Assembly (NCBI GenBank): GCA_019448385.1
Contig: JAGTXO010000028.1
Coordinates: 372,001 to 436,000 of the forward strand
Length of the DNA stretch: 64,000 nt
Direction: 5' to 3'
Source: Diacronema lutheri
Taxonomy: Eukaryota > Haptophyta > Pavlovophyceae > Pavlovales > Pavlovaceae
Each line of letters begins with the position of its first letter. The first letter of the stretch is position 1. Position numbers and translations under genes: made by a program. Below the pieces are notes generated by a model that was not told the origin of the DNA, did not search any database, and worked only from the letters and a program-made list of their open reading frames with translations. Shown here piece after piece: positions 32,464-64,000 of the stretch.

Positions 32464-32495
<32 letters not shown>

Positions 32496-34178: not shown

Positions 34179-34261
<83 letters not shown>

Positions 34262-43417: not shown

Positions 43418-43503
43418 GCTGTGCGAGCGTGCACGCGACGAGATCTCGTCGGGCGTGCCGTCCGTTCGTTCAGAGCAGAGCGCGTCGGACCGGCAGACAG
43501 ACG

Positions 43504-43707: not shown

Positions 43708-43832
43708 GACGATGCGCGGCGCCCGCGGAGGACTGGTCCGTTGGCGCGCAAACCGTGGGCGAAAGGGCGCGAAGCCAACGGCCGTCCGCGCACGTTCAAA
43801 CGCGCGCATACGGGTGGCATCCTCCCACCTTC

Positions 43833-44153
43833 GGCGCCGCTTTCTAAAAGGGTGTAGGGTGTAGGGTGTAGGATGCAAAACAAGCCCTCCCCACATTTGG
43901 GCCCGACGTCATTCCTTCTTCGAAGCCGTGACGTTACTCACATACGAGTACCTTTACTTAGTGTAGGATGTATCTATTCTCTAGGTATTTGCATAGTGTA
44001 GGGTGTAGGATAAGTACGGTTATGAAAGTCCCATAGGGGGGAGAAGGAATGACGCTGTGACGAAAGAAGGAATGACGTCGGGCCCAAATGTGGGGAGGGC
44101 TTGTTTTGCATCCTACACCCTACACCCTACACCCTTTTAGAAAGCGGCGGCGC
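43833..44153 (+). mobile_element. TIR element, copy A (non-coding, foldback)
   Basis: Terminal inverted repeats of about 90 bp start GGCGCCGCTTTCTAAAAGGG, then three TGTAGGG-type units, GATGCAAAACAAGCCCTCCC and GGGCCCGACGTCATTCCTTC. The interior (ACATACGAGTACCTTTACTT, GTATTTGCATAGTGTAGG) is lower in GC than its surroundings. It encodes no protein and resembles a MITE or foldback element. Confidence 0.85.
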
Positions 44154-44381
44154 CTCGGAGCATGGCGGCTCGACAGCATGGCGCCTCGACAGCATGGCGT
44201 CGTCCAGCGTGGCGTCCAGGATGGCGACTGCGCCCGGGCCGTGACGCCGCGACGTCGTTCGGCTGCGTCACGGAGGAGCGCCATCCGTGCGCCACGGAGG
44301 AGCGGCAGGACCACGACGCGGCGTGACGCTGGACGACGCCATGCTGTATAGGCGCCATGCTGTCGAGCCGCCATGCTCTGA
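44154..44381. repeat. Spacer foldback between the two TIR elements
   Basis: About 55-bp arms: GAGCATGGCGGCTCGACAGC with ATGGCGTCGTCCAGCGT on the left, and the reverse complements ACGCTGGACGACGCCAT and GCTGTCGAGCCGCCATGCTC on the right. The centre is about 44,268. Confidence 0.85.
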
Positions 44382-44706
44382 GGCGCCGCCGCTTTTCAAA
44401 AGGGTGTAGGGTGTAGGGTGTAGGATGCAAAACAAGCCCTCCCCACATCTGGGCCCGACGTCATTCCTTCTTTCGTCACAGCGTCATTCCTTCACTCCCT
44501 GTAGGACTTTCGTAACCGTACTTATCCTACACCCTACACTATGCAAATACTTAGAGAATAGATACATCCTACACTAAGTAAAAGTACTCGTATGTGAGTA
44601 ACGTCACGGCTTCGAAGAAGGAATGACGTCGGGCCCAAATGTGGGGAGGGCTTGTTTTGCATCCTACACCCTACACCCTACACCCTTTTAGAAAGCGGCG
44701 GCGCCT
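44382..44706 (-). mobile_element. TIR element, copy B, inverted relative to copy A
   Basis: Same element as copy A read in the opposite direction: the interior appears as CCTACACTATGCAAATACTT then ACTCGTATGTGAGTAACGTC. A few substitutions and a short difference around CTCCCTGTAGGACTTTCGT separate the copies. With copy A and the spacer it forms one nested foldback of about 870 bp. Confidence 0.85.
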
Positions 44707-44799
44707 CAGAGCATGGCGCCCGCCCGCTCGAGCCGGACCTCCGCGCAGCCGGACTCGCCCCGCCCCGGGCTGCTCTGGCTGGGCGACGTCGTGCGCGCC

Positions 44800-45276
44800 T
44801 CAGAACGCCGCGCTCGCCACGCGCACGTAGCCCTCGTCCGGGTCCGGCTCGGGCGCCGCGTCGCGCACCGAGCGCGACGCGGCCTCGACGCCCGGCGTTT
44901 CGGCACGCGAGGCGACGGATGCCTCGTCCGGCCGGCCCCACGGCAGCTGCAGCTCGAGCTGGCGCTGGATGCTGCGCGGCGTCGCCACGCGCCCGTGCTG
45001 CACCTCGCGACGTCGCGCGCGCACGTAGAGCACGATCGCCACCGAGCCGCTGAGGCCCATCATCGCGCCGAGCAGCACCGAGATTGTGGTCTCATTGTCT
45101 GCTTGGGCGCGAACGGAAAACGCGCGAAGGGTGGCGACGAAGATCGTTGGGTTGGGTTGGGCCACCGGCTCCCGAGGATTGCTTGTGGCGCTCGACTGAC
45201 CGTTGGCCCAGCTTTTTTTTTTCTCGAACCTACTGTGGAGCCGCCTGCAGCGTGATCTCCCGCGCACAACGACCAT
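44800..45276 (-). CDS. Single-pass membrane protein of unknown function
   Basis: 158 codons from ATG 45276. A membrane helix TISVLLGAMMGLSGSVAIVL (about residues 62-81) is followed by a basic stop-transfer YVRARRRE and a polar tail ending DEGYVRVASAAF. The start is uncertain; this ATG overlaps the opposite-strand ATG of the helicase-related frame in a CCATGG. No family is recognised. Confidence 0.45.
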   Translation of the reverse strand: MVVVRGRSRCRRLHSRFEKKKSWANGQSSATSNPREPVAQPNPTIFVATLRAFSVRAQADNETTISVLLGAMMGLSGSVAIVLYVRARRREVQHGRVATPRSIQRQLELQLPWGRPDEASVASRAETPGVEAASRSVRDAAPEPDPDEGYVRVASAAF

Positions 45277-47690
45277 GGCCGCCATCGACCTGCGCGCCTT
45301 CGACGCGGCGCTCGTCAACTGCGAGATCGTGAGCACGCGGCCGGTCAAGCCGAGCGAGCAGGCGCGCACGGTCGACAAGCTGAGCTACGGGCCGTCGCGC
45401 CGCGCGCTCGCCTTCGTCTCGCCGCCCTGCGTCGTCGACTGGCCCGAGCTCACGGGCGACGGCAACTTTGGCACCATGTACGGGCCGACGGACGTCGACA
45501 AGGCGGCGTACACGGCCGGCGTGACCGACAAGGAGCTGCCGATTGAAGGCGCGCCGCTCGCGCAGATGGACGCCTACTTTGGCGCCCTGCGCGCCATCGA
45601 CGATCAGCGCGTCGAGACGGTGCACGCGCGCCAGAAGGAGCTGCTCAACACGCGCGGCCTCTCGAAGGAGGAGGTGCGCGGCAAGCTCTCGCCCGCCGTC
45701 AAGCCCAAGTACGAGGACGACACGCTCGCGCACACGCGGCTGAACATGTCGACGCGCACGTTCACGTGGGCGGGCTCCGAGCGCGTCGTGCCGCTCGTCG
45801 ACGCGCGGCGCGAACCGGTCGACGAGATCCGGCACGAGGACGTCTGCGCCATCGCCACGCAGCTCGACCGCGTCTACACGGGGCTCACGGGCTCGATGTT
45901 TGGCACCAAGTGGAACGTGTGCGGGGTCATGCTCCTGAAGCGCGCCGAGCAGCGGCCGCAGCCCGGCTCGGACGCCTTCGCCTCGTACGGCGTGCCCGCC
46001 TGGGCCGACACGTTCGACTCCACGGGGCTGTACGTGCCCGACGAGCGCGAGCGCGCGGCGGCGCTCGCGGCGGTGGCCGGTCTGCGCACGGCGCGCGCGC
46101 CGGCCGGGCCGGGCGGGCGCGAGCTCGCGCGCGCGCAGGGCTACCATCGCGCCGAGCGGGCTGCGAGCGCGGCGGCGGCGCGCGCGGCGATGGCCGAGGG
46201 CGGCCAGCAGTGCGCGCTCCACGGCGCGGTCGTCAAATCGGCGCTGCGCGGCGTGGGCAACCGGCTGCATCTTTGCGACGCGCCGGGCGGAACGGGCAAG
46301 ACGTTCGTCGAGCGCGCCATTATCGCCGCCGTGCGCGCGGATGGGCACGCGGTCGTCGTGGGCGCGTCCTCGGGCGTCGCCGCCACGCTGCTGCCCGACG
46401 GCCGCACCTTCCACTTGACCTTCAAGGTGCCCGGCGGTGCCGACTCCGACGGGCAAGCCGTTCAATGGCGTGCCGCGCTCCGAGCGCGGGCGCTCCCTGG
46501 CCGCCGCGGCGGCTGGTCGTGTGGGACGAGGCGCCGATGCAGACGCGGTGCCACCTCGACTCGCCTGATCGGTGTTTGCGCGACGTGACGGGCGTCGACG
46601 AGCGCTTCGGCGGCGAGACGCTGCTGCTCGCCGGCGACTTTCGCCAGTGCTTGCCGGTGGTGCGGCGCGGCTCGCGCGCGCAGATCGTGCGCTCCTGCCT
46701 CAAGTACTCGGCGCCGTGGCAGCACGATCGGCAGCACGCCTTGGTCGAGAACGTTCGCGCCTCGAGCGCGGCGCGCGACACGGGCGACGCGCTCGGCGCG
46801 GGCGAGTGGGCGGAGCTGCTGCGCAGCCCCGGCGACGGCGCCGTTCCCGCGGCGGTGCCGGCGGCCGGGGCCATGCCCGGCGCATTCCCGCTCGATCCCG
46901 TGCAGCTGCCCGAGGCCGTCGGCGGCGTCCCCATCCGCGTGGGCTCGGCCTACCCGACGGAGCTCGTGACGACTTTGTCCACGGCGCGACGTGTTGGACC
47001 GACGACGGCTCGCTGTGCGACCGCGCGGTGCTCTGCGCCAAGCAGACGGACGTGGCGCGGATCAACTGGCTGGCGATCGGCCGCTTCCCGGGCGCGGCGG
47101 CGAGGTGCGCGTCGGCGGACGAGCTGGCGCGACGACGGGGCGGGCAAGCAGATTGCGCTGGCGTCGGTCGAATTCCTCGACTCGCTCGAGCACGCGCAGA
47201 TGCCGCACCGCGTCCTCGACCTGAAGCCCGGGATGGTGGTGATGCTGCCGCGCAACCTCTCGCCCGGCGAGGGGCTGTGCGGCGGCACGCGGCTGATCGT
47301 GCGCGGCATGCGCGCCGGCGGCCGGCTGCTCGAGTGCGCACGCCCCGGCGCGGCCGCCGGGCGCGACAGCACCGTGCTCGTCGCGCGTGTCGACCACCAC
47401 TCGCCCGACGACGGCACGTTCGCGCTTGTGCGGATGCGCCGCCAGTTCCCCGGTGCGGCCGGCGTAACGAGGCGCAGGGGCAAGCGCTCGGGTGCGCGGG
47501 CGTGTGGCTCGCCGAGCCGTGCTTCACGCACGGCCAGCTCCACGTGGCCGCTTCGCGCGTCGGGCACACGTCGCGCGTCCGCTTTGCGCTCGGCCCGGAC
47601 CTCGTGACGCGCAGCGTCGTCTTCAAAGAGGTGCTCCGCGCGGTCAGCGGTGGCGAGGCGGCGGCGGCGGCGCTCGCCGCGGCCGCCGTC
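45275..47690 (+). pseudogene. Decayed Pif1/Helitron-type DNA helicase with an extra N-terminal domain
   Basis: The frame is intact from ATG 45275 to about 46450. Residues 1-230 form an unrecognised domain (LSYGPSRRALAFVSPPCVVD, VCAIATQLDRVYTGLTGSMF, GTKWNVCGVMLLK), vaguely like ssDNA-binding-like domains of large viruses and mobile elements. The helicase follows: DAPGGTGKTFVERAI (Walker A), ASSGVAATLLPDGRTFHLTF, then in other frames RLVVWDEAPM (Walker B), LLLAGDFRQCLPVV, CAKQTDVARINWLAIG, LPRNLSPGEGLCGGTRLIV and QGQALGCAGVWLAEPCFTHG followed by QLHVAASRVGH. Block order and wording match Helitron-associated Pif1 helicases. At least five frame changes (about 46450, 46505, 46972, 47130, 47460) break it. 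No HUH Rep domain was found. Confidence 0.75.
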
Positions 47691-49181
47691 GCCGCCGCGC
47701 GCGAATGCGCGGCGGCGGCGCGCGGTGGCGGCGGGCGCGGACGGCGCGCGCGGCGCCGGCGGCGGGCGGCGCGCTGGCGGCGGGCGCGCCGCCGGCGCGC
47801 GGTGCTGGCCAGCACCCGCCGGCGCGACGCCCGCCGCGCCGCTCGCGCCGACGCGCAGCCGTCGGGTGCTCGCCAGCACCGCGCGCCGCGCGACCGGCCC
47901 GCGTACCTGCGCGCCCTTCTAGGGCGCGCAGGGCGGCGCCAATGCGGCCGGCGCGCAGGGGCCTCACGCTGGCGCGCTGCCCGCCGCCGCGTGGGTCGCC
48001 GCTGCGCGCGTGCCGTCGGCGCTGCCGCCGCCCGGCGTCGCGCTCGCGCCGCAGCCGCAGCCGCCGCCGCCGCCGTCGCCGCCGCCTGCCGCCTGCCGGC
48101 AAGCTGGGCAAGTGCGCAGCGGCGGCGACGGCGGTGCGCGACCCGGCGAGCAGGCGGCGCGCCGCCGAGCCGGGGGCGGGCTCCGTGGGCGACGAGGCTC
48201 GCCCGCCACTCGCACTACTCGCGCGCCAAGTGCGCACAACGCGCCCCCCCCCCCCCCCCCCCCCCACCCCACCCCCCGATGAATTTAATGCTCATACCAT
48301 GGCGTCGCGCCACGGCAGTACGCCCGTGGCCCCGGCGGCCAGCCTCGCGCCGCTACGCCGTGTCGTCGCGGCCGGCGCACACAGCGAACTGTGTTTCCGC
48401 GGCACATGCCCGGCTGCTCGCGCGCTGCAAGCTTGCCAAACTGCTCGCGCTGGAATGGCGCGTTGCGGGCGTGCCCGCGCACCGCGCGTGTGCCATGCGC
48501 GTTCCGGGAGCGCCGCGCCGCGCGCCAAAGCGGCGCGCGGCGGACGTGCGGCCTCGGGCCGAAGAGGGGCCGGCGCGACCGGCCGCGAGGCGGGCGCAGA
48601 CGCTCGGCGTGCCGGTCGATGCGTCGTCCAAATCCGCGTCGGGCGGATGCGCGCCTGGGCCGGCGCTGCGTGCAGTCGGCGGGGCCCGGCCACGCGCTCG
48701 GGCGTAACGTTCGCGCCTGTTCGGCCGAGGCGCACTCGCCGTCCCCTCGCGCCGGCAACGTGCGTGCGGGCCAGCACGCAGGCAGCGTACGATGCCACGG
48801 CAGCGGCGAGCGCGTCCCCGCCGGTGTGCCGCTCGGCGCCCCGTCACGCGCAACGTGCGCGCCGCCCGCTGCATGCGCACGCATACGCGCGCTGGCAGCG
48901 TGCGCAAAATTGCCCGGGCAAGATCGTCCCGCGCTCGCGCCGCCGACGCATCATTCCATGTGTCCGTTTCGGCATCTGCCACCATCCACCAGCCCTCGAA
49001 AGCCGGCTTGCGCGTGGGCGCCCGTCCGGTGCGAGAAGCGGCTCGCGTCCTCGCGCGGGGCGCCTCCGCGCCAGGCGCCCGGCGCGCGCTCGTCTTGCCG
49101 CGCCACCACGCTGATCTGCGCCCAACCCTCGCTCGCCAATTCCCCCGTCGTCCCTGCTGCGCAGCCCGCAACAGCGCGCGC
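47691..49181. other. Unresolved region between helicase and USP gene
   Basis: Ala/Arg-rich open frames on both strands without recognisable domains. GGTGCTGGCCAGCACC and GGTGCTCGCCAGCACC (about 47,800-47,880) are two small hairpins. A C22 run at 48244-48265, of the type found in introns here, suggests an intron or intergenic tract. Upstream exons of the USP gene could lie in this stretch. Confidence 0.4.
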
Positions 49182-50605
49182 ATGGCGCGTGCACGGCGCG
49201 GCGCCTTGAGCAAGTTTTACGTCGTCGGTCGGCAGCCTGTGGAAGACGCGTTTGACGGCCCGATGTGGCCGGTGAGAGTGCCCGGCGTGCCGCGTGGTGA
49301 GCGCCTGCACGGCTTGCCGGGCTCGGCGCGCGCCCAGCCAGCCTCCCTCCATCCCGCCGCAAACCGTGCGTGCGCACCCCGCACACCCGGCGCTGCGCGG
49401 CGCGGCGCAGGCGCGAAAAACGAGGGCAGCGCGTGCTACACGACCGTCCTTATGCAATCGCTCTTCGCCCTGAACATGCTCCGTGCGATGCTTCGCTCCG
49501 CTTCGCGCCGTGCCAACAGCGTCGAGAGGGCGCGTTTTCGGGACTTTGGCACGCTGATCGAGGACACCAGGGCGCCGACACGGCTGTGTCTTGTGTCCGT
49601 CATCGACGTCATCTCGGGCCGTGGCGCGCGAAGGACGCCGCAGGATGCCGCTGAGTTCTTCCGGTTGCTGCTCGGCCGAGTGCCCGGGCTCGCTGCGGCC
49701 TTTGAAGCCGACACACGCGTCGGGCCAGTGCTCGAGCAGATCGCCGTGCCTTCAGAGGCCGGCGAGGGCATCGCCGTACTCGTCAGCGTCGGCGGCGATG
49801 CGGCGCGCGCGCTTGCACACGCTCTGGGGGGCGCCGCTGGGCCGCCGCGGGATCGCCACACGAACGCGGGCCACTCGGGCGTGCTCACGCCAGCCAGCAT
49901 TGCTGTCGAGGCGCCGCGCACGACGCGCGGCAATGGCTCGCAGTGCAAGAACAACCGCGCGCTCGTGTGCGCGCCGCGGCTGCTGCTCGGCGGGCGCGAC
50001 CACCTCCCCGTCGCCGGCGTGGTGCACGTGGGCGAGGGGCCGATGAGCGGGCACCTTGTCGCCATCGTGCTCCGCAACGAGGCTTGGTTTCCGTGCGACG
50101 ACTACAACGTGCGGCGGCGCGCACGGTCGCTCGGTGCCGCGACCGGCGGTCGAGCGCAGCCGCGACCGCCCCGTCCTCCCGCGCGGCACGCGCGCGTGGC
50201 CTGAAAGCTCGCGCGCGCGCCTGCCGCACGCACGCGCGTTGCCCGCGCAGATCTACAACGTGCCTGAGTCCGACGCGCTGGCGTGGGCAAGTGGTGCGAG
50301 CATGCTCGTTCACAGCCGGCTCGACGTGGAGCCGTTGGACCCGGCGCTGGGCTCAGCGTCACCGCCGTCGGCCGCATCGCCTGCGTGGCCGAGCTCGGAG
50401 CCCGACGCGCCGACCTTGCCGGCAGCCTGGCCGCGGGTGCGGCAGATGGCAGCGGTGCCAACAGATGCGACGATCGGCATCGCGGAGACGGCTGCAGACA
50501 TCTCTACGGCGGCGATCGGCCCAGCTGCGTGCGAGGCCCGCCAAGTTGTCTCCGTGACGCGCGCATTGCCAACAGCGGTGAGTGCGTCCTCGTCTCCGGC
50601 GGCCG

Positions 50606-50637
<32 letters not shown>

Positions 50638-50854
50638 ACACACACACACAACTCTCCCTACCTTCTTCCTCCTTTCGCACCTCGCACGCGCACGCCGTCC
50701 GCTGTCCGCTGTCCGCGGCCCAAATTGCCTTGCGGAAGCCGAGCAGGCAGAGCCCTGCTTGGATGGCTCCAGCGCGCATCTTGTGGATGGCGACGCTGTG
50801 GGCGAGCACGGACGCTCAAATGTGACCAGTGGCGCGCACGTGCACGTGCGCTAA
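49182..50854 (+). CDS. Compact USP-family (C19) ubiquitin-specific protease
   Basis: Proposed exons are 49182-49296, 49411-50108, 50251-50577 and 50747-50854; 415 codons, phases 1, 0 and 0. The Cys box is AKNEGSACYTTVLMQSLFAL (Cys at about residue 47), standing for the usual NxGNTCYxNxxLQxL. An aspartate-rich linker with GRGARRTPQDAAEFFRLLL resembles the QQDAxEFxxxLL block. The His box is HVGEGPMSGHLVAIVLRNEA with WFPCDDYNV (His about 252, Asp about 269), followed by a final strand SGASMLVHSR. Catalytic residues look present, but the domain is short (a typical USP catalytic core is about 300-350 residues) and I see no Zn-finger CxxC pairs. It removes ubiquitin from proteins. The true N-terminus is uncertain. 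Intron 3 contains a C27 run and a CA repeat. Confidence 0.7.
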
Positions 50855-51636
50855 CTGGACGTCGAGCGTGTGCGCCTTGTCCGCACGTGTGCACTCACGT
50901 GCGACTGCGGCGATCTGCCCGGCGTAGTAGTCCGCGCGCGCGGGAGCCGCGTCGGCAGTAGGAGCAGGATAACGTACTTGCGCCTGACGAGGACGGCGAG
51001 AAGTGCGGCTTTTCGCTCGGGGTCTACCATGCCGCCGAGGTTGGCGCTGGCGCGCGTGAGGCAGTCGGAGCGCGCTGGGCCCGGGTTAAAGGCCTCACCC
51101 CGGGGGACGGGAGGATTCAAGGCGCCGAGCCGCTGCGGGTGCGGCGGGAGGCCCCGGGCGGGTGTGCTAATGCGGCTCGATGGCCGCCTGCCGGGGGGGG
51201 GGGGGGGGGGGAGGGGGGGGGGGGGGGGGGGGGGCGTTGGGCCGCCCGCGGAAACGGAGGTGAGCGTGTGGGAGCGGCGCGCGTCGGCGCGCGCGGCTGG
51301 CGTGCAGCACGGATAAGTCTTGTGTGGACTTCGCGGGGCGGATCCCGGTGCAGGGATTGCCGACGTAGGCCGCGAGCGCGAGCAGGGCGGGGATGAAGAC
51401 GGATGATGGGGTTGGGGCCAAGGCCGCCGCACCCGCAGCTATCACGGTGGCAGCGACCGCCACGGTCAGTGCGAGGCTCGCGTGGCCGCTGCGCGGGCAG
51501 CTCGCCCGCCAGGTCCAGGAGGGCCGGCCTGCGGCCTCAGTGCCCAGCGTTGGGCATGTCAGCGTCTGCGTCTGCGGGCCCGCCACTGCGATGGCGCATT
51601 GAGCCTGGCGCACCAAAACGCAATCGGTCCGCCGAT

Positions 51637-51677
<41 letters not shown>

Positions 51678-53583
51678 CGAGGCGTGCGCGGGGGCTTGGG
51701 GTGGGCTCCGGGTGCCGGCGCTGTGCCAGCGGCGGGCTTGGTTGACGCCGTCTCGCCGGGGCCCTTGCGCCTTGCGGCGCGAGCGTCGCGGAGGGGCGTC
51801 GGCTGCGCTGGCTCCGCGTCGGCGGTGGCGTGGGGCAGGCTCTTGTGGAGGGCGGAGCGCTCGCGCACGAGTCGGTTGCCAAGGCGGGCTGTCTGCGTGC
51901 CGTTGGGCTGCGCTTGGGCAGGTAGGACCTGCGGCCTCGGGGGCGGGCGGGTTTTCGTGTTGGGCCAGGCGGCAACGCGCACCGGCCGTGTTCGCGGCCG
52001 GCAGGCGGACGTCCGCAGCGGGGCGGAGAATGCGGGTGAAGCGCTTGCACGGGCGCGGTTCGCACCTGGCGGCCAGGCGATCACGAACCGTTGGGTCGCC
52101 CGGCTGTTTGGTGGAGCCGAGGGCAGCAAGGATAGCGAGCTTGGCCGCCTCATCGGTGACGAGCGGCACTGTTGCCCAGCTCTGTACCTCGAAGCCCTGG
52201 ATGTGCAGGCGTCGGGGAAGTTCCCGGCAGCGTCGCCTGCGTCCGTCGAGAGGCGGACCGAAGTCGCGCCCGTGCCCCCGTTGGCGACACCGAGCTCTCG
52301 CTCGTTCACACCGGCCCGCCGACGCGGGCGCGTGGTGCGCGCGCGTTGGGTGCGTGTCTGCCTCGAGCAGCGTGCCCAGTCGCAGTGTGGGCGCGTGTCC
52401 GTCTGCCTCAAAACGCCACGTGGAGGGGAAGGCGCGGGGCGGGCTCGCCGAGGAGGTGCCGCCGCTCGCTGCCACCCGGCGCGGGCTCGGGGCAGCCGTC
52501 TTCGGGTGCCGCGCTCTTCGCGCCATGCACGAACGTTCCGCCGCGCTCGCAGCGCGCGAGCGCACACACAGAGCGCGCGGCGACCCCGGCGGGGGCAGTG
52601 CGTCCCGGTGGCACTCGCGGGCGCGCGCCTGGCCTGGGCGCAGCTGGGCGCGTTGCCGCCCGCGCAGCGAGCCGCCCGCGCGCCTCGCCGCGCGCGCGCT
52701 TCGTCGCACGCGTGCGCCCTGCATGCACGCGCACAGCGCGCGGCGGCTCGGCGCAGTGCAAGGCAGAGCGTGCTGCAACGGTTGCGAGGGCGCGCACGCG
52801 CGGCGCGGCGCGCCCCTGTGTGGTCGCCTGCGCGCGGCGCGTGGTCCGGACGCAGCTCGGTGGCGTGATGCCGTTCGTGCAACACAGTGCGCGTGAGAGC
52901 CGCACGTGCACACCTGCAGTGCAACGCGGCATTGCGCGCGTTGCGTGGGCGGAGCGCGGCTGGATGTGCTTGAGGTCGCGCAGCATGCCGCGCGCCGCGC
53001 GCTGTGCGGCGCAGCGAGTCGGCCATGCCCCTGGTCCTCGTCTCCGGGGGGGGGGGGGGGGGGGTGGTGGTGGCAACCAGGATCCGCCAGCGCGTGGTGG
53101 GCGCCGTCCAACTCCCAGCCAGGATGCGCCCCGTTCTTCCCCGACACTCTCCGTCCAAACCCGCCGCCCAGCCTGCCGCCGCACCCGCCGCCAACGCCGC
53201 CGCGCACCCATCCGCCGAGCTCACCTCGCGCGCGCTCGCGCTCACGCTGCGCGACGAGGCTGCGCAGGCCGGCGCGCGGCCGTGCAGAGCAGCGCAGGCC
53301 GGCGCGCGGCCGCGCGCGCGCGCTCACGTTGCGGCCGCGCAGCGAGCTTTCGCCGCGTCGCAGCCCCTCCGAGCAGCCACGATGCACGCCCCCGGAGGAC
53401 GTTGGCCGCGCTCGGAGGCCGCGCTCGGGCGCGCAAAGAGAGGCGGCGCGGGCAAACGAGTAGGCTCGGCGCGCTGGCGGGTCCTGGTTGTGGGAGAGCG
53501 GGGCATTCTCCAGGGCATCATGTAAATTCTCCCAAGTATCATCCGGGCCGCCATCCGGACACTGACGTGCCCACAGTCTGCAG
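50855..53583. other. Unresolved stretch, probably an intron-bearing minus-strand gene
   Basis: On the minus strand, C-runs (plus-strand G at 51193-51234, 51638-51677 and 53046-53064) sit just upstream of plausible acceptors, for example GGTGCGCCAG before 51602. The open block after that acceptor, about 51602-51290, encodes a hydrophobic stretch (SLALTVAVAATVIAAGAAAL then PSSVFIPALLALAAYVGNP) consistent with two membrane segments. Another ordered-looking minus block is LHIQGFEVQSWATVPLVTDE at about 52,200. No family is recognised, exons cannot be chained with confidence, and the plus strand also has open frames. Confidence 0.35.
51290..51602 (-). other. Candidate exon with two membrane segments
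   Basis: Minus-strand block from 51602 down to about 51290, preceded by a C40 tract and a CAG acceptor. Hydrophobic residues as described in the parent region. Listed separately because it is the only part of the unresolved stretch with protein-like features that I would defend. Confidence 0.3.
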
Positions 53584-56500
53584 ATGGAGGACTCCGTGAA
53601 GGACGCTTTGCCCGGCGGGCGGGGCGGCTCGGACAGTTTCTCGCTGGCCCTCAGCACCATTCTGTCGCCGGGAGATACCCACCCCCACGTGGTCCCATCC
53701 ACTTGCCTCATCGCCCTGCTGCGTTACGCGGATTTCGGCACGAGCAGGGTTAGGGTGGGCGACACGGGGTGCTCGCAGCATGCGCTCAAGGTGGCGCTGC
53801 GCAACCTGCGCAAAGCATGCGCGGATGCGGACCGGTTTGGGCAGGTGCTCGTGGTCGTGCTACCGCTCTGCCTCCGCGCGTCCAGCGGCCTCGTGCACTG
53901 GACGGCGGCGTACCTGCTCCTCGCGCCGCCCGCGCAGCGCGGCGCGCCGCCCGGCGCCGCGCTCGCCCTGCTCGCCGATTCGCGCACCTTGGGCAACGGC
54001 GAATCGGCGTACGCCACGGCGGCCGGCGTGCTCATCAAGAAGCTTGCGCAGCGCATCGGCAGAACAGCGCCGCCCATCGATGCCTTCAAGGCGCCCCCGC
54101 AGAGTGGGGCCGCGTGTTGCTTCGCCGCGGCAACAGTCGCGGCCGAGGTCGTGGCGAGCGCATCGACGCTCTACGGCCGCCGCGCGAGTGTCCTTGTCGA
54201 CATCAAGAAGGCTTTGGACGCGCGCCTCGCGCGCCTCACGACGGCCGCGTACGAGGAGACCCGCGCGCGCACGCTCCGCGCCGCCATCGGCGCTCTGCTC
54301 GGCGACCGCGCCAGGCGCTTCGGCCCGTTCACCCGCGAGGCCGCGCGGCTCGCCGAGGCCGCGCGGCTCGCCGAGGCGTGCGATGCCAGTGTCGGCGGAT
54401 CCGCGCCCGACGGGCTGCTGCAGGCCGTCGAGGCGGCGCTGCGCGCGCCCGACGACCGCATCGCACGCACGGCCGCGCTCGACGCGCTCACGGGCGCTGC
54501 AGGCCGCGCGCTGTCGACGGCGGCCAGGCCGCGCGGCGCGGCGGCGCCAAGGCCGCCGTCGCGAGCGCCACCGCCGCGTGCGCCGCAGCGGCGCGCCGCC
54601 TCGGCGTGGGGGCCCCGACCATTCAGCAGCCTCGGCGGGGGCGAGGGCGACGGGGACGATGGCGACGCCACCACCGCTGACGACGGGGAGGGCGCGGAGG
54701 ACGGGGACGACGACCCCGCGGGCGCGGCGGCTGCGGCGGTGGCGACGGGCACGGCGGCGACGAGCGCGGTGGCGGCGGGCGCGGCGCCAACCTCGCCGGC
54801 GGCGGCGGACGGCGGTGGCTCGGCGCCGCTCGAACGCCGCTGCGTCTACACTGCGCCTGATGAGGGCGACGCGGACGCGCGCGTGTACGACGCCAAGGAC
54901 CCCGAGCAGCTAAAAGCGGGCAGGGCGCGGCTACGGGCGAACAGCGGGCGCGCGCCCGCCGTGGTCGACACGCTTTTCGCGCACGCGACGGGCACGATCG
55001 TCACGCGGCAGCGCACGGAGGGCGTGACCGGCGCGGGCATGCACCACCTCGCCGCCCCGACGCAGGGCGCGGGGTACGGTGCCGTCGTGCGGGCCGAGCT
55101 GGGCGAGCCCGGCTTCGCGGGGACGACATGGCACATGACGTCGGGCGTGGAGAACCAGCCGCGCGCGGTACGAGCGGCCGCGCGCGCGTACGCGCACGAC
55201 GGCTGGGGCGGCGTGTACAATGCGCACGAGGACTTTGCCGCCTTCGAGGGCTTGCCGCGGCTCGCCGCGCCCGAATCGCTCGCGGCCATCGCCGGCGGGT
55301 CGGCGGACGCGGTGTTCTGCTGGCGGTCCGGCCGGTCCGTCATCGGCGAGGTGACGACGGTTCACTTCAATGGCGACCGCGCCGCCGCCATCGACCACGC
55401 GCGGGCGCTGCGCGTCAGGCCCGATTGGCGCTCGCAGCCCAGGATCTACGAGGCGGCGTGCGGCGCGGAGGGCACGGTGCTGCTCGTGTGGGTCGTGCCC
55501 GACCGTCACAAGAACCCGCGGCTGGACTGGGCGCCGATTCTCGTCGTGATCCACCTGCCCGCCGACCCCGACTGGCTCGCGCGCGCCACGCCGGCGATCG
55601 CGAAGGCGCGGCGCGAGGTCGAGGACGGACGCGCGCGCGCGGAGGCGCGCGGCGTGCCGCAGCACCTCGCCTACACGCTGAGCCCACGCTTCCGAGGCAC
55701 CGCGCCGCGCGGAGCCGCGCGCGTGCCGCCGCGCCTCGGCGCGAGCGACGCGCGCGAGGCGCGCGCGCTCGCGGCGCTCGAGCCGGCGCTCATGTTCGCG
55801 CCGGCCTGGCGGCGCGCGGTGCGCGCGGCGAGCCGCGCCCCCGGCAGTGGCGCCGCGGCCGTCGAGCGCGCGCTCGCGCGCCTGCACAACGCGCTCGAGC
55901 CCGATGACGAGAGCGCGCCCGAGTCGACGCGCGTCGCGCCGCTCGCCGCCGCGCTCGAGCAGTCGGCGGGCTGGCCGGCGGGCACGGCGCGCATGGCGGC
56001 AAGCGTGACCAAGGGCCCCGGCGTCGGAGATGGCGCAGGTGGCGACGAAGTGACCAAAGTGGAGGAAACGGCGAAGACGAGCGGCGACGGCTGCACCGGC
56101 ACGCCTCCTCTGCGCCCGGCCGCGCGCGCGGCCGGCGCGGCGGACGACGGAGGGGCGGCGGTCGTGGCGGGCGTCGAGGGCGAGCGCGACGCACTCGCCA
56201 AGACGGGTGCCGGCGGCTGCGACGACGACGCTCGCGAGCCGCTGTCGGCCGGCAAGCCCGGCGCACTCGCCGCCGCGGCGACCGTCGGGGGTCTCGGCGA
56301 GCTCGTCGGCAGCCTATGCGCGTGGCTGGCGCGCGGCGCGGCTGGCGGCGCCATCGCGGCCATCTCCCCCGGGACGGCCGCGCGCGGAGCAAACGGCACG
56401 CCGCAGCGCGCCGAGCCGCCGGCCGCCGGCGATCCCGTCGCTCCGCACGCGCGCGTCGCCGCTGCGGCGCCCTTGGCGGGCAGCGCGGCGGCGCCGTCGT

Positions 56501-59500
56501 CGGCCGCGCGCGACGCGCAGCGCGGCGTCGCGGGATTCGACGCGGCCGCGCACGCGCACGCGCGCGACGGCAGGCGGGCGGCACGGCGGATGCGCGAGCA
56601 GGAGGGGGCGGTGCACAGGGCCTTCCGCATGTCCCTCTGGCGCGACGCGACGTTTGTCGAGTTCGTTGAGAAGCTGCGCCCCGACGGCGGCGCGCAGCTG
56701 CTCGCGCGCGAGCCCACGCGGCGCGCGGCGGCGGTGCTGTGCGAGCTCGCGCGCGGCCGCGACGGCGCGAGCGGCGCGGCCGGGCTGCTGCACGAGATGA
56801 GAGCCGCCGATGCGCGCGCGCGCGAGGCCGCCAAAGCGGCGGAGGCAGCGCAGCTTGCGCACGGGACGCTGCGCATCGTGGCAACCGTGGCGCTGGGCGG
56901 TGCGGTCTTCGCCGGCATGTCAGCGCTGGTCGTTGCTTGCGCGGCGCGCACGGCGACCGGTGCGCTTTTTGGGGCCCGCCGCCCGCGGGCGGCCGCGCGC
57001 GGAGCCGACGACGCGCTCGGCACGCTGCAGCGCGCCGAGCCGCCGCCCGCCGACAAGGGCAAGCGCAGGCGCGCCAGAGCCAACGACGACCCCGTCGACG
57101 CGGCGCGCAAGGCCGTGGGCAAGGCGGAGGGCAACTGCCGCAAGGCAGCCCGCCGGCTGCACCTCGCTGCACTGGGCGAGGAGGAGGCGCAGCAGCGCGT
57201 GCTCGACGCCGAGGCGGCGGAGCAGCTGGCGCGCTCGCGCGAGCCGGCCGGCGGCTGGGTAGGCAGCGCGCGCGCGCGCGCGCGCGCGCGCGCCCCGCCG
57301 CGCGCGCGCCCGTCGATTGGCGTGCGCGCAGCGCAGAACGGCGCGCCAGCTCCGTCACCTGCGCGCCGCCGCGCCCGTGCCCCTCGCGCGCAGGGGCGCC
57401 CTGCGGACCTGCGGCTGCAACAGGCGCACTTTGGCATGCGCGAAGATGCCGACGCGGAAGTGCGCCGCGCGCACGAGGCGCTGCGCCGGGCGAGACAGGG
57501 TGTGGCGTGCGCCAAGGCCAGCGTGCGGCAGATGGAGGCGGCGTTGCTCAACGCGACGCGCTGCGCCACCGCGGTGCTCGCGCCGCGTGGCGTGCCGGAG
57601 GGTGACGAGCAGGCCGCGGCGAGAGAGCAGGCGGCGCTGGACCGGGAGGCGCCGCCGGCCGCGCAACGCGCGGCGCCGACGGCGCGCTCGCCCTCGGAGC
57701 CGCCGTCCGAGTGGGGCCCGCCAGCGGTCGGCCGGCGCCCGACGCCGCGTGCACTGTCGCACGCCGCGGGTCGCGGGGACGACAACCCGTTTGCGCCGCT
57801 CGCAACCGTCAGCGGCGATTGGTCGCCCACGCCGAGCTCGCGCTCGCCGTCCTCGCCGCCGCGGCAGCCGCCGTCCGACCGCCGCAGCGCGCAGCGTCGC
57901 AGCGCGCGCGCGCGGCCGCCGAGGCCGACCGTTTCGCCCGAGGACGCGCTCGCAGCCGAGCGCCAGGCGCGCGCGCTGTCGGAGCAGGCGGAGCAGAGGC
58001 GCGCCAAAAAGGCCGCCGCCAAGGCCGCGCGCCGCGCCGCGCGCGCCGCCGACAAGCGGACGGCGCGCGTCGTCCACGCGTGCGTAAGCGCCGCCTTGCG
58101 GCGCGTCTGCACGAGCGTCGCCACGGGCACGCCGCTCGCCGTGCTCCGCGAGCGCGCCGAGGGGCCGCGCGCGCCGAAGCCCGCGCCCGCGCCGCCACGC
58201 CGCGCAGCGGACGGCGGCCGCGCGCTCCGCCACGCGCGCCGTGCGGCCGCCGCGGCGGCGGAGCGCGAGGCGGCGGTGGCGGCCGACGCCGACGAGCGGT
58301 TCGAGCGGCAGCCCTCCGCCGCCCGGTTCGACGGCGGCGATGGCGGCGGAGGCGGCCACGTCGAGGCGAGCGCGCGACCGCGCGCCGGCGAGGCCGGCGA
58401 GGCTGGCGCGCACGGCGCGCCTGGCGCAGCGGGGACCCCGGCGGCGTCGCTCGCGTCGCGCAGCCCGTGTGATGCGCGCCGCACGGCACGCCTCCCGCAC
58501 GCACGCGCCGCAGCCACCTGCGCACGCAACGGCGGCTGGGGTGGCAACGTCGGCGGCGACGTGTGCGGCGGTTGTTTCGGCGGCGGCGGCGTCCGTCGCG
58601 ACGCCTGCGGCGGCGGCGACGCCACCTGCGGCTGCGGCGATGGCGGCGTCGGTGCTGGCGCTGGCGAGGCCCCTGCACACGGTGCGCCGGCGCGCGCGAC
58701 GGCGTCGCGCTTGCTGCGCTTGCTCGGCGCGCCACGCGCCGTGCTCGGTGCGATGGCGCACGCCGCGGCCGTGTTGGCGCGCGGCGTGGCCGCAGCCGTC
58801 GCTGGCGTGCGCGCCGCCGCGCGCGCCGTGCGGCGCGCGCGCCGCCGAGCGCCTCGCGCGCGCCGCACGGCTGCGCGGCGGGCTCGCGGCCCGCCGATGC
58901 GCGACGTCGACGGCGCCCTGCGGCCCTCGCCGTCCTGGTTGCGCACACGCCTCGTCTGCGGCCGGCGCCTCGCGCCTCTGCGCCGCGCGGGCGCGCGCCC
59001 GCCGCCCGCACACGCCGCGCCGAGTTCCCGCGCGCGCGCTGCGCAACCCGACAGCGACGCGCCGGCGTGCGCGCCGCGGCGCTCGGCGCCTGTCGGTGCG
59101 CCGCCGCGCGCGCGTGGCCTGCGCGCGGCGCGCGCACGGCGCTTCCTCGACGTCGCCGGCCGCGCGGCGCGGAGCGCGCGCCTCGGCGCGCGCATCACGC
59201 GCCAGCGCACGCCGGGTTCGCCATCGGAGCCCTGCACGGCCGAGAGCGGCGACGGCGCGGGCGCCGGCGGCGTCGGCGCGGCGGCGCCTGGCGCGGCGAC
59301 GATGCGCGCCACCGGCGCGCGCGCAGCGCGCGCTGCGGCGGCGGCGGTCGGTGGCGCCTCGCGTCTCGCGCGCCGCGCGATGGCAAGCGCCGCCGCCGCT
59401 GCCACCTCCATCGCCGGCGCTGCCGCCTCCACCGTCGCCGCCGCCGCCGTTGCCATCGGCGCGGCCGTCACGTCACCGGCGTTCGCCGCGGCGCGCGGCA

Positions 59501-61841
59501 TGGCGGCCGCATGCGTCGCTGCCTGCGCCCGCCCCACCGCCGCGCAGGCGGCCGCGTCGCGCGCGCTCGGCGCGCTCTTCGTGCTCGTCGACGCGGCCGA
59601 CGCGGCGGGCGACAGCGACGCCGCGCTCGGCGCGCTCGCGGCCGCGGTCGACGCGACGGAGCTGCGCCCGCCGCCGGCCTTTTGGCGCGCGGGCCGCGCC
59701 GCGGCGTACGCACCGCGTCCGCCGCCCCTCGACTCGGCGCGGCCGCGCTACAACCGGCGCGCGCGCGCACCTAGCCCTCCCGTCGCGGCCGCGCGGCGCA
59801 ATCTCGCGCGCGCGGTGCGCGAGCTCACGCGCGCCGCGCGCGCTGAGCGCGAGCGCGCGCCGGCGCCGCGCGGCGCGCGCGGCGGCGTGCTCCACGCGCT
59901 GCGCGCGTCGCTCCCCGTGCACGCGCGTGCCGCGCTCGGCACGGACGCGGAGCTGCGCGCGGACATCGCCGCGTTCGCGCGCGCGCGCCGCGAGCTGCAC
60001 AGCCTCACCGACGCCGAGGTGGCGGCGCTCGCGCGCCCGGACGGGCCGCCGCTGCCCGTGCGGCTCGCGTGCACGGCGGTCGCGCGCGCGCGCGGCGTGA
60101 CCGTGCTGCTCGACATCGTGCCGCGCGGCGGCGGCGCGCCCGAGCGGCTCGTGTGCCGCGCCCGTCGCCGCGGCGCCGCCACGCGCACGCCACGGCCGAC
60201 AGCCGCCGTTATCGCGCGCGCGCCTTGCATAGCGGCGCGCGTTGGCCACACTGAGCCGGCGCGCGCGTGCGCGGGCGGATCGATCGGGGTCGCGCGCCTC
60301 CGTTCAGCGCGCCGCCGCTCTTGGCGTGGGGCGCGGCTCGACGTGCACACCCGCGAGCGGCTGGCCACACCGGTGCCAGGCCACGTCGTGGCCTGCGCCG
60401 CCGCCTCGGCCATCGGCGCGTGCGTCGCTCGCGCGCGGCTTGGGCTTGCACGGCTGGCGCGCGCGTGGCCCTGCGCCTCCGCTCCACTGGCCGCTGCTGC
60501 TGTCGCCTTCGCGCCTGCCGCCGACGGTGTTTTCTGCGCCCCGCTGGGCGCTCCTGCATCCGCCTTCGCGCCTGCCGCCGACGGTGTTTTCCCCGCCGCA
60601 CTAGCCGCTGCTGCATCCGCCTTCGCGCCTGCCGCCGATTTTCCCGCCCCACTAGTTGCTCCTGCATTCGCCTCCGCGCCTGCCACCGACGGCGTTTTCC
60701 CCGCCCCACTAGCCGCTGCCGCTGCCGCGTCCGCGCCCGCCGCCGCGGGCGCGTCTTCCGCCCCACCAGCCATCGCCGCCGCGCCCGCCGCCAACGCGCG
60801 CACCGCCAACGTGCCCGTTGCCAACGAGGCTACCGCCACCGAACCAGCCGCCCTTGAGCTTCCCCTCCAACCCGCCAACTCGGCGCTGCTTGCGTGGGCG
60901 GGCGACGCGGCTGCGCGCCGGCTGGCCGCCGCCGCCGCGAGCGCCGGCCTCCCGCAGGCAGAGGTGGAGCGCATCGCCAGCGGCGACATGCTCGCCTCAA
61001 CCGTCGACGCGTGCTGCGAGGTCGTGCTGCGCGTGCACGGGCAGGCCGGCGGCGGGCATGTCTGCCACGTGCCGCTCGCCGCGCAACCCGCGGTGTTTCA
61101 GGACGACGCCGAGCGCGCCGCGCTGCTGCACCGCCTGCGCAGCGAGGCGACAACGCAGGCTGTCATCGGCGTGTGGAGCCCGTCGGACGAGCGCGGCGGC
61201 GCGGGCGGTGACGACGGCGCGCAGCTCGCCTCCGGCCATTTCACCGCGTTGCGCCTTGTGCGCGTCGCGCGCGCGGGCGAGCATCGCTACGACGCGGTGC
61301 TCGTCGACACGCTCGCGTCGCCCTGCAGGCAGGCGCTCATGCTCGCCAAGGCGATAACTGCCACGCTGCACGCGGCGGGTCTCGACATTTCGCGCGTGCG
61401 CCGCGCGCTGCTGCTCAACGAGGCGGCGCAGCGTGGCGCGACGTGCGGCCTCGCGATAGTGGGCGCGCTCAACGACGCGCTCGCCGCGGCGGGCTGCTCG
61501 TCCGCGCCGCGCACGTTCAGCGTGGCGGACATGTACGCTGTCGGCGAGCGCCTCCGCGTCGCGCTGACCGGCGCGGCCAGCGATCGTGCGCCGGGCGGCG
61601 TCTGCGCGGTCACGAGCGCGGTGCGCGGCGGGGGCAGCCCCGATGGCGCCGAAACGCCGCCGCAGACGCGCGGCGCCAAGGCCGCCGCTGGCGTCACCGC
61701 CGCCGCCACCGCCGCCGCCACGCCGCCGCCGCCCGCGCTGGGCGCCGCCGCCGCCGCCACCGCCGCCGCCGCCGCTGCTGCCGCCGCCGTGGCCGCGCCG
61801 CCACCGCCGCCACCGCCGCCGCCGGCCGGCGACGCGGGCGA

Positions 61842-61917
<76 letters not shown>

Positions 61918-64000
61918 GCCGCGCGCACGTTCTTGAAGCTCGCGCCCAGGGCGCGCGCGGCCGCCTCGGCGCGTGAGGCGTTGCGCGCCGCGTGTGCGCG
62001 CGCGGACGCGGCGGCGTCGTCACACGCGTCGGCGCCGCACGCGCCCGCCGGTGCGCGCCGCCGGCGGCGCGCGAGCGCAGGCGAGCTGGCGCTCGCGGCT
62101 GCGCGCGCGCTCGCCTCGACGGAGCACGGCGATTTGACGGACGACGCGCTCGAGGCCGCCGTCGAGCAGGAGCTGGGCGACGAGCGCGGCCAACTGCTGC
62201 TGTGCACGCGGGGCGCAGCGGCGCAAAGGCCCGCGCTTTGCCGGCTCCTGAAGCACGCGTGCGCGTCGGCGCGCGCGGCGAAGCGCGCGCAATTCACGGT
62301 GTTCGTCGTGCGCGCGGCCACGCGCGGCGAGCGGGGGGGCGCCGCCGCGAGGCGCGTGGACTCGGTGGTCGAGCTGTCGTGCGCGCTGCACGAGAAGGCG
62401 GGCGCGCTCGGCGGCCTCCAGCGCGTCTGTGTGCGTGGCTTCGCCCTCGAGCGCCGCCGGACACTCGACGCTGGCGCCGAGGCCGGCGCGTCCGCCATCG
62501 GCCAGGACGAGCAGGTCGAGGCAGAGGCGGGCGAGGCGTGCGTCGCCGGCGTGACGATGGCCAAGCAGCTGCGTCAGTTTGCCGAGCAAGCTGCCCGCGA
62601 CGACGTGCTCTTCCACGTCGCCGTGTCCGAGGCCGACGCCCACGCCCGGCTGGCGCGCGTTGCGGGTGACGATGTCGGCGCGTACAGCGTCGTGCTCGCA
62701 GTCGCCGGGCTCGTCTGGCTGGCCAAGGCCGACGAGGTTGCGCCGGCGGCCGCCCAGCCCGCCGCCGTGCCGCCCGCCGCCCCGCCTGCTGCCGCCACGT
62801 CCGCCGACGCCGAGCGCGACGCCTCGCCTTCCGACCGCCTGCGCGCGCTGACGCTCGCCGTGCGAGTCGCGCTCGCGCGCGGCGTGCTGCGCCACCTCCT
62901 CGCCGACGCGTCGCCGGGCGCGTCCGCGACCGCTGGCGGTAGTTGCGCGACGCCCGTCGAGGCGGCCACGTCCGCCGCCGCGCCGCCCGCCACGGGCGTC
63001 GTGACGAGTGGCGTTGCGGCGGGCGCTGTGGCGGCCGCACCGGCTGCTGCGGGCGGTGCGATGGCGGGTGCATCGCCCATCACGCGGCCGGCGAAGCGCG
63101 CGCGGCGCACGCTCACCGCCGCTCCAGCCGCCTCGGCCGTTGCGGCCGCTGGAGGCGCACGCGCGGGCGCACGCGGCGCGGCCGGCGCGCCTCGCGCGCG
63201 CGCCGCGCGCGCGCCGGCCGAGTACGTCTGGCTTGCCATCGCGCGCCGGATGCTGGCGGCGCGACACGCGGCGGCCGCGGGCGGCGACTTTGTCGCGTCG
63301 TGCGTCGCCGCGATGCAGGCCGAGTACGGCGACGGCTGTGCCGTCGTCGTCGGCGACGCGCCTGATGACGCCTTGGTCGAGGCTGCGGCGGCGGCGCTGC
63401 TCGAGGGCAAGCACGCGGCGGTGAGCCTCGGCTGCGTCGACCGGCCGGCGGTGCTCGTCGTGCAGCGCGCCGTGGACGCGCCCACGTCGCGCGTGCACGG
63501 GTGGTGCGCGCACGCGGCGGGCGCCGCCGAGTTTGACGAGGGCGCCGCGCACGGCGTGTTCAACGCGATCGTCGAGCGCGCGTGGGCGCTGCGTCCGGAC
63601 CCGGCCGACGGCAGCCCGCCGCCCACGCGCACGTGGGAGGTCGAGCAAATCGCTGACGACGCGCCCGACCAGGCGGGCGTGGCCGCGCTGCGCGTGCTCT
63701 ACGCGCTCGTCGCGGCGCACGGCCGCTACCGCTCGGCCGCCGCGCTCTTTGGCGCGCTCGCGCAGCTGCACGCGCCCGACGCCGCCGGCGCGCGCGCGGA
63801 GGTCGTCGCGGCGGCGTGCGCGGTGCCGCCCGGCGCGCGGCCGGGCGCCGCGCCGGCGGCCCGCGCGGGACGACGCGAGGGAGCGCGCATGGGACGGCGC
63901 TCAGATCGCCGCGCTCGCCGTCGGCGCGGACGCTGCGCGCAGGCGTGTCGCGCCCGTGCGCGCGCTCGTCGACGCGCTCGGCACGCCACCGACCTCGGCG
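53584..64000 (+). CDS. Giant protein with two Ulp1/C48-like cysteine-protease signatures (3' end outside window)
   Basis: One open frame without a stop from ATG 53584 to the window edge, 3,472 codons. The preceding in-frame stop is at 53563. First signature: VHWTAAY (His 105), LLADSRT (Asp 132), PPQSGAACCF (Gln 173, Cys 178/179). Second: SGHFTALRLV (His 2552), AVLVDTLASP (Asp 2575), NEAAQRGATCGLAIV (Gln 2616, Cys 2621). The order H-D-Q-C and the Q...C(G) spacing match Ulp1/adenain-type papain-fold proteases, and the Asp-to-Gln distance is 41 in both. Between them are an acidic linker, an ordered unknown domain (about residues 480-700), a membrane helix (TLRIVATVALGGAVFAGMSA, about 1096-1115), Ala/Arg-rich coiled coils, a Cys/Gly-rich strip near 58,500-58,640, and Ala/Pro repeats near 60,480-60,840 and 61,680-61,920. 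A third region near 63,600 is similar but lacks a Cys. Near 63,870 another frame looks better, so an intron or indel may lie there. Confidence 0.7.
61840..61920. repeat. GCC trinucleotide run (poly-Ala)
   Basis: About 25 consecutive GCC codons with a single ACC, encoding a polyalanine tract inside the giant protein, bordered by CCG (poly-Pro) runs. Confidence 0.9.

Follow-up and report, generated by a model that had tools for sequence, protein, structure and literature searches.

A giant gene of Diacronema lutheri as the probable core of a large, recently amplified, Fanzor-bearing DNA transposon

We propose that a giant open reading frame at the right-hand edge of a 64,000-nucleotide (nt) stretch of the Diacronema lutheri genome (the window: contig C3, JAGTXO010000028.1, positions 372001-436000) serves as the core gene of a large DNA transposon, recently amplified in this marine alga, and we would put the probability of this explanation, in the full form set out below, at roughly 0.55. 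That the frame belongs to a mobile element bearing a Fanzor-type nuclease, an RNA-guided enzyme similar to those of CRISPR systems, we regard as nearly certain. The copy in the window is an interspersed mobile element, young and recently amplified. An earlier reading of the window from its letters alone (the sequence-only reading) had suspected mobile DNA, a suspicion upheld by 216-228 ends across the genome, by the fixed position of those ends, by a target motif and by near-identical copies; it had also looked to the haptophytes, rightly, the host being D. lutheri NIVA-4/92. Positions given below are those of the window; the continuation of the contig past the window is called L009, where L009:8900 corresponds to window-equivalent position 72900.

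An interspersed element with fixed ends

The element that contains the frame belongs to a 31-kb class and occupies 41841-64000 of the window on the plus strand. From a left border near 41841 it reaches 8,900 bases past the window, to a right end at window-equivalent 72900 (L009:8900) that lies one base before the end of contig C3, which gives a length of about 31,000 bases. The assembly scanned comprises 103 contigs and 43,492,796 bases. The opening 2 kb of the reading frame are found in it at a minimum of 40 places, all of them 100% identical after rounding, and alignment of six further copies with the window's contig gave 99.1-99.7% identity across the 20.7-30.1 kb compared. A pattern for the right end (29 bases, up to two mismatches) matches 216 places genome-wide and one for the left end (30 bases, up to three mismatches) matches 228; the reversed patterns, used as controls for both ends, match none.

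Copies fall into several size classes. From the 100 listed places per end, 42 end pairs were matched by hand, leaving out unpaired ends and one 16-kb pair on contig C46; nine of these pairs span 21.4-21.6 kb, six 26.2-26.9 kb, five 29.1-29.4 kb, nineteen 30.5-31.1 kb and three 31.6-32.5 kb, with a mean length of 28.2 kb. At this mean length, 216 elements, one for each right end, would add up to about 6.1 Mb, or 14% of the assembly, a figure that is an estimate from ends and not a count of whole copies. A copy of the 21.5-kb class on contig C14 shares the left 2.4 kb at 99.2% identity, has window positions 50588-60770 replaced by 2.36 kb of otherwise unmatched sequence, and is 97% identical to the window from 60770 through the right end. 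A copy of the 26-kb class matches the window at 99.1% over 54533-61535, the part compared. Both classes compared there retain the sequence between 60.8 kb and the right end, and one of them lacks the start of the PIF1 helicase gene described below; a transposase, if the element encodes one, would be expected in this retained part. For the region before about 60.77 kb, a protein comparison between the long frames of the C14 copy and the window was discarded, since what it aligned was low-complexity sequence.

The giant gene and its domains

The sequence-only reading had described a frame open from 53,584 to the window's edge, and this is borne out: a single frame on the plus strand is open from the ATG at 53584 past the edge to 64824, a run of 3,746 codons. 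In 200 first-order Markov simulations of the stretch, the longest stop-free run in any of the six frames had a median of 792 and a maximum of 1,424 codons. The G+C content by codon position across the whole frame is 0.83/0.69/0.87, and 29 of 33 segments of 450 bases (starts 53701-63301) favour the frame's own phase and strand, the exceptions being those starting at 59101, 60301, 60601 and 63001; the contrast is weak at 58.2-59.5 kb. Near 63.9 kb the periodic signal shifts frame, runs on to about 70.6 kb and then returns to the original frame until about 72.45 kb. The giant frame is real and coding. Openness driven by G+C content, which the earlier reading had named as the explanation that a codon-periodicity analysis might reveal, is ruled out by periodicity and simulation together. 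Between the 21.5-kb-class copy and the window, the ratio of nonsynonymous to synonymous differences (pN/pS) at 60772-61650 is 0.60 when read in the coding phase and 1.08 and 1.25 when read in the two other phases; in the coding phases of the PIF1 and ubiquitin carboxyl-terminal hydrolase (UCH) pieces it lies at 0.91-1.72. Protein-level selection is therefore supported in the 60772-61650 stretch only.

The gene had also been called intron-free, which is probably wrong, because an interval with GT-AG borders at 57259-57423 on the plus strand, containing a (GC)n tract near 57.27-57.31 kb, splits the open frame in sister copies. This candidate intron measures 165 nt in the window copy, a multiple of three, and 163 nt in the sisters; it is two bases shorter in six of six sister copies compared, with the frame split there, and a seventh copy shows the same split. 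The putative exon 1 would thus cover 53584-57258 (plus strand, 1,225 codons) and exon 2 would begin at 57424 and run, in the window copy, to a frame break near 63860. There the window copy has a one-base length difference from six of six sisters, because of which its frame ends at 64824; in sister copies exon 2 extends beyond the window to about 70.7 kb equivalent. A second intron, past the window's edge, would split the Fanzor part. Within its chromodomain the window copy further carries a nonsense codon, which none of the four sisters reaching that place shares. The window copy is hence frame-broken, and intact copies exist. The second frame of the copy on contig C89 runs through 4,518 codons without a stop (offset coordinates 57263 to 70816), on C1 an open frame has 4,504 codons, and the 21.5-kb-class copy on C14 has its own of 4,190. 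With the two predicted introns removed, the C89 gene would encode 1,225 + 4,409 + 574 = 6,208 residues in three exons, and the suggestion of a polyprotein-like giant gene gains from this one very long multi-domain frame. Exon 2 through the N-terminal half of the Fanzor is open in three of the six copies that contain the right end (C89, C1 and C14) and broken in the other three (C3, C4 and C80); the same frame is open to the contig's limit in C17 and broken in C27. Faulty polishing of GC-rich repeats could account for part of these breaks.

No Pfam profile reaches its cut-off with the part of the giant protein encoded inside the window, and to that extent the earlier statement that it resembles no family stands; it fails for the gene beyond the window, which matches a Fanzor or TnpB-type nuclease, a RecE-like exonuclease and a chromodomain. 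The nuclease lies at the right end of the gene and matches Pfam TNB at E 1.7e-6, above the cut-off. Fanzor proteins have been defined by the C-terminal motif D-X(125-275)-[TS][TS]-x-x-C4 zinc finger-X(5-50)-RD (PMC3627910), and the D. lutheri protein has the D, a spacing of 184 residues, TS-M-H-C, four cysteines and a final HRD. A further fingerprint, Ealt, is an alternative glutamate placed six residues ahead of the zinc finger's first cysteine (PMC10711439); it is found as E-PYTSMH-C in the window copy and in protein relative P0001 and as E-AYTSMH-C in relative P0002, and the third relative, P0003, ends before this region. P0002 and P0003 (from sources lgn and jgi) are about 44% and 40% identical to the Fanzor half by BLASTP, which shows the protein to be conserved elsewhere. 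Weaker matches are to Cas12f (E 0.0093 in a PDB profile search and 0.0074 in PADLOC; Cas12f1 at E 0.4 in a single-sequence PDB search) and to TnpB (NCBIfam, E 0.018); relative P0002 itself reaches TNB at E 0.38 only.

The RecE/lambda-type exonuclease, at about 65.6-66.2 kb equivalent, matches PHROG_434 at E 5.6e-16 over residues 537-728 of the translation of L009:1-2400 and PHROG_149 at E 1.8e-9, along with TIGR03033 (NCBIfam, E 2.8e-6) and YqaJ (Pfam, E 0.0038), both below their cut-offs. The profile match covers the nuclease core, and the SPDG, ExK and Q motifs were recognised by eye. The sole protein relative found for this region is P0004, a EukProt peptide named Pavlova lutheri; for the N-terminal 739 residues of the giant protein no protein relative was found. 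The chromodomain in C89 matches Pfam at E 6.4e-13 and PDB chromodomains at values down to E 7.1e-10. At 60901-61655 (plus strand) a stretch with the residue order H..D..Q..C resembles an Ulp1/C48 protease by eye, with no support from Pfam, PHROGs, NCBIfam or a PDB sequence search and a model at a predicted local distance difference test (pLDDT) score of 45, and further stretches look like degenerate Ulp1- or USP-type protease units, likewise by eye and without profile, PDB or structure support. PDB sequence searches with other pieces of the giant gene and of the helicase returned only matches at E 0.17 or worse. An alanine-rich (GCC)n stretch at 61655-61922 (plus strand) varies in length between copies.

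After the Fanzor stop codon comes a 405-nt non-coding right end that is identical to that of the window copy in three of five copies and 98.8-99.8% identical in the other two; for exon 3 of the Fanzor, identity between the window copy and these five is lower, at 96.7-97.7%. Such near-invariance fits a cis-acting end and a putative scaffold for a guide RNA. In SpuFz1, the RNA region lies between the stop codon and the right end and the motif is CATA; known Fanzors take their guides from beyond the right end and read the motif 5' of the target (PMC10432273). As a separate observation, exon 3 of the window copy (L009:6860-8410, or 70860-72410) differs by about 2-3% from the five copies and both its sides are nearly identical to them, which suggests gene conversion or recombination between element versions.

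Upstream of the giant gene, the element holds a PIF1-type helicase gene at 45275-47650 (plus strand) in three frames, probably three exons, with Pfam matches to PIF1 (E 3.7e-14 and 1.8e-24) and Pif1_2B (E 5.3e-13); about 250 residues without a family precede the helicase. An open frame at 48708-50201 contains a match to UCH at 49410-49676 (plus strand; E 4.3e-8, above the Pfam cut-off). Ten further frames between 41.8 and 53.7 kb gave no Pfam match. The left part of the element also contains a cluster of nested inverted repeats at 43832-44718, with arms of 89-207 nt that are 95-99% complementary, and a moderately periodic frame on the minus strand (42880-43908) with no family match.

Target site, mechanism and competing explanations

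The junctions were collected with an exact anchor and a G or C required at the far end; the counts that follow refer to those listed, 100 of the 119 on the right and 100 of the 131 on the left. The hexamer TATATA stands directly 5' of the element in the window copy (41834-41839, plus strand) and precedes it in 82 of 97 distinct left junctions, the base before it being C in 78 of the 97. At the other side the element ends in TATAC in 85 of 96 distinct right junctions, and beyond these motifs the flanks are near the genome's background composition. The left end reads GGCGCGG and the right end CTATAC, with an inverted repeat of only about 5 bp. Of 33 end pairs, 20 have no direct repeat of at least 5 nt in common, TATAC is shared by 10, and TATACTA, CGTCG and a 13-nt repeat occur once each. 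The last of these, in a copy on contig C9 (2907806-2938842; L072/L073), ends in TATAT and is unlike the other 32 pairs. Four copies with an unusual core on one side all keep the usual core on the other: where the left core varies the right stays TATA (three of three), and the reverse holds in the single converse case. A terminal duplication of TATA is ruled out for these four informative copies, and the simplest reading is that the element inserts 3' of a TATATA-like target without duplicating it.

We give even odds to the following mechanism, in which there is no target duplication, the Fanzor reads TATATA together with the right flank and cuts empty sites, and exonuclease and helicase assist in copy-back. 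Splicing of the giant gene would yield a product of about 6,200 residues, either a single protein or a polyprotein that is later cut, possibly by its own protease-like parts. A recombinase would join the right and left ends at a TATATA-like target without duplication, much as IS200/IS605 elements, Helitrons or tyrosine-recombinase elements do. The Fanzor would carry a guide RNA with the 405-nt right end as its scaffold and the right flank as its guide, and it would cut the vacated or allelic empty site beside the TATATA of the left flank, which would serve as the target-adjacent motif. The RecE-type exonuclease and the PIF1 helicase would then aid in copying the element back by recombination, and the chromodomain may steer the complex to marked chromatin. 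As a more tentative and rather doubtful idea, the family might be a superfamily of its own among giant eukaryotic DNA transposons. Its single polyprotein of about 6,200 residues would unite protease-like units, a RecE-type exonuclease, a chromatin reader and a Fanzor, and it would spread by "RNA-guided homing", in which the Fanzor cuts TATATA-flanked sites and the exonuclease then assists in copying, with a transposase of unknown kind or with none.

Several observations weigh against a transposon organised and mobilised in this way. Profile searches of the frames scanned turned up no HUH, tyrosine-recombinase, serine-recombinase or DDE family, the only match labelled "transposase" being phrog_506 at E 0.22 on the Fanzor piece, and a motif scan found no serine-recombinase motif. 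The 21.5-kb class has amplified (nine of the 42 pairs), yet its C14 copy is missing the first part of the PIF1 gene, and because of this PIF1 may be dispensable in cis. Between a copy of this class and the window, pN/pS is 1.53 (five changes) at 61930-62700. In the nuclease, the first RuvC motif is DPN, not DPG, in P0001 and the window copy (it is DPG in P0003 and DTG in P0002), the first zinc pair is not CxxC, and an AlphaFold2 model of the Fanzor half has a pLDDT of 41.7, too poor for a comparison of folds. The RNA of the right end folds little better than shuffled sequences (z -1.18 and -1.29). The introns, the joined protein and the guide RNA are all predictions from genomic sequence. A TATA duplication is excluded solely at the four variant junctions, and elsewhere it would look the same as a fixed end next to a preferred target. 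Finally, an empty site was sought through a neighbouring repeat family with a TATA end; none was recovered, the flanks being too variable.

An alternative is a divergent giant Helitron of the Helitron2 kind, whose Rep-HUH domain would be hidden in the giant protein or supplied in trans, with PIF1 as its split-off helicase half and the Fanzor as a passenger of the sort described for algal Helitrons. We consider this possible, if on the unlikely side. In its favour, variant junctions have no matched duplication and an A+T-rich motif adjoins the insertion; a near-palindrome lies 28 nt before the right end, the fold of the left end is somewhat better than that of shuffled sequences (z -1.97, equalled by 9 of 200), a PIF1 helicase is present, and two of four matches to an HUH-type motif (56548 and 66605) fall in the coding frame of the giant gene, with no other Rep motifs by eye. 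A Fanzor1 is found in Helitron2 of Chlamydomonas, related Helitrons insert after TTTT without duplication, and the 13-nt direct repeat of one in 33 copies resembles those described for some Chlamydomonas elements (PMC3627910). The ends, however, are not 5'-TC and CTRR-3', the 3' asymmetric repeat of Helitron2 was not found on inspection, nor was a 5' repeat matching the near-palindrome, and the right end folds no better than shuffles in the same end-fold test (z -0.91). Of a RepHel protein, PIF1 is the only part found: no Rep or Helitron N-terminal profile matched in the frames scanned, where divergence beyond detection is possible.

Improbable in our view is a Crypton-like tyrosine-recombinase element, which would circularise and integrate by crossover at a short TATA core, using a recombinase that escaped recognition. 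TATA is indeed present at both ends of most copies, the junction variants lie within that core, and no terminal inverted repeat is seen beyond about 5 bp; Fanzor1 proteins accompanied by Crypton recombinases are on record (PMC10711439), one such case being called uncertain (PMC3627910). Against this proposal, one core varies while the opposite core stays TATA (three of three and one of one), and because of this the two cores are not exchanged copies. No tyrosine-recombinase profile matched in the frames scanned, and although one of nine H-x-x-R matches (65012) lies in the coding frame of the giant gene, no other recombinase boxes were seen by eye around it.

The sequence-only reading had also considered a viral origin, for which we find little support; an endogenised polinton-like virus or nucleocytovirus that multiplied in the genome is very improbable. 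Size, a giant polyprotein, a helicase and a RecE/lambda-type exonuclease would all suit a virus, Fanzors occur in large DNA viruses (PMC3627910), and one PHROG family named "virion structural protein" (phrog_19855) matches at E 9.2e-7, over the same residues as the exonuclease. Against this, Pfam and NCBIfam gave no capsid, packaging-ATPase or polymerase match, four pattern-based scans of IMG/VR contigs, which reach close relatives only, found no relative, and the chromodomain and the fixed target motif suit a transposon better.

That the copies belong to a family of host genes which segmental or subtelomeric duplication has spread, or that they are an artefact of assembly, we regard as practically negligible: contigs C1, C3, C8, C12 and C14 do begin or end at, or one base from, the right end of the element (among the 100 right ends listed), the read N50 of 23.5 kb is shorter than the element (PMC8379373), and 3 of the 100 listed left junctions repeat the flank of another, so that a few copies may have been co-duplicated with their surroundings, but 97 of 100 left and 96 of 100 right listed flanks are distinct and near background beside one target motif, and contig ends at repeat borders are expected from unresolved repeats, a left end also standing at a contig border (C32:7). 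Some breaks between contigs of the D. lutheri assembly are probably due to this element. A telomere-associated gene had been considered, as several copies lie about 19.3 kb from contig ends and point outwards; it was rejected because internal copies join the same right end to other sequence and because of the break at C32:7.

Surroundings, known elements and significance

Directly to the left of the element, at 41758-41832, lies the end of another repeat family, with the consensus end AAGCGYCGTTAGTATA. A 26-base pattern for its body (up to two mismatches) matches 238 places and a pattern for its end (up to one mismatch) 701; some copies are inverted pairs joined at TATA, and at least eight places, among those listed, lie within about 50 bases of an end of the giant element. 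It looks like a small DNA transposon or miniature inverted-repeat transposable element with a TATA target. Farther left, a tandem GCGTG array at 39516-39998 has 96 copies with 98% matches. A second very long open frame (30736-38487, minus strand, 2,583 codons) has a protein kinase match near its C-terminus at E 3.8e-19; a 2-kb piece of it occurs full-length at one place in the genome, its other matches being short and repetitive, and a tRNA-Ala called inside it by ARAGORN is probably false. A frame of 1,120 codons at 6328-9690 (plus strand) with a weak RVT_1 match (E 0.0011, below the cut-off) is possibly a retroelement remnant.

Fanzor-bearing transposons are already known; the giant-gene architecture was not found in searches of open-licence papers, where the titles and abstracts listed, together with PMC6338049, describe no element of this kind. 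The closest in setting are CRe-1, CRe-2 and CRe-3 of Chlamydomonas reinhardtii, Helitron2 elements with a Fanzor1 (Bao and Jurka 2013, PMC3627910): they too place a Fanzor in a DNA transposon of a unicellular alga and insert beside a short T-rich or A+T-rich motif, and copies with a full 5' end are described there as having no target duplication, whereas that description includes no giant multi-domain gene, RecE-type exonuclease or chromodomain. The ends of the D. lutheri element and its missing Rep domain do not fit the definition of Helitron2. IS200/IS605 elements are small insertion sequences. Those with TnpB resemble the D. lutheri element in inserting 3' of a short motif, in having an RNA-guided nuclease near the right end, and in a right-end RNA that is expected to read into the flank (PMC10711439). 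Their Y1 HUH transposase was not found in the D. lutheri element, which is eukaryotic and 31 kb long. SpuFz1 of Spizellomyces punctatus (Nature 2023, PMC10432273) is likewise a eukaryotic TnpB-like nuclease, and its CATA motif resembles TATATA; its elements have inverted repeats of 30 nt, in contrast to about 5 bp in D. lutheri. The D. lutheri Fanzor also differs from SpuFz1 in closing a frame that is much longer. Polintons and other large self-synthesising elements span tens of kilobases, carry many genes and move at the DNA level, and Polintons are marked by a type B polymerase, an integrase, capsid genes and long terminal inverted repeats. The D. lutheri element differs from Polintons and polinton-like elements in that Pfam detected no type B polymerase, integrase or capsid family in the frames scanned and its inverted repeat is limited to about 5 bp.

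The genome of D. lutheri NIVA-4/92 has been described as compact and streamlined, with 103 contigs, 43,502,671 bp and 73.25% G+C; repeats make up 22.9% of it, and long terminal repeat elements (32.7% of masked bases) and long interspersed nuclear elements (3.8%) are the majority of the annotated ones (PMC8379373). In the main text of that paper, "transpos" and "Helitron" each have zero occurrences. If all 216 right ends belong to mean-length elements, the family accounts for about 14% of this compact genome, which suggests that a genome paper can leave a 31-kb element of high copy number unnamed. On the question of why eukaryotic transposons retain RNA-guided nucleases, the D. lutheri family makes the idea of retention or homing directly testable in an alga that can be cultured, because it is young, has more than 200 ends of each kind, keeps the frame open through the N-terminal half of the Fanzor in three of the six copies with a complete right end, and offers a clear candidate for the target-adjacent motif, a fixed right end and a recombination exonuclease in the same frame.

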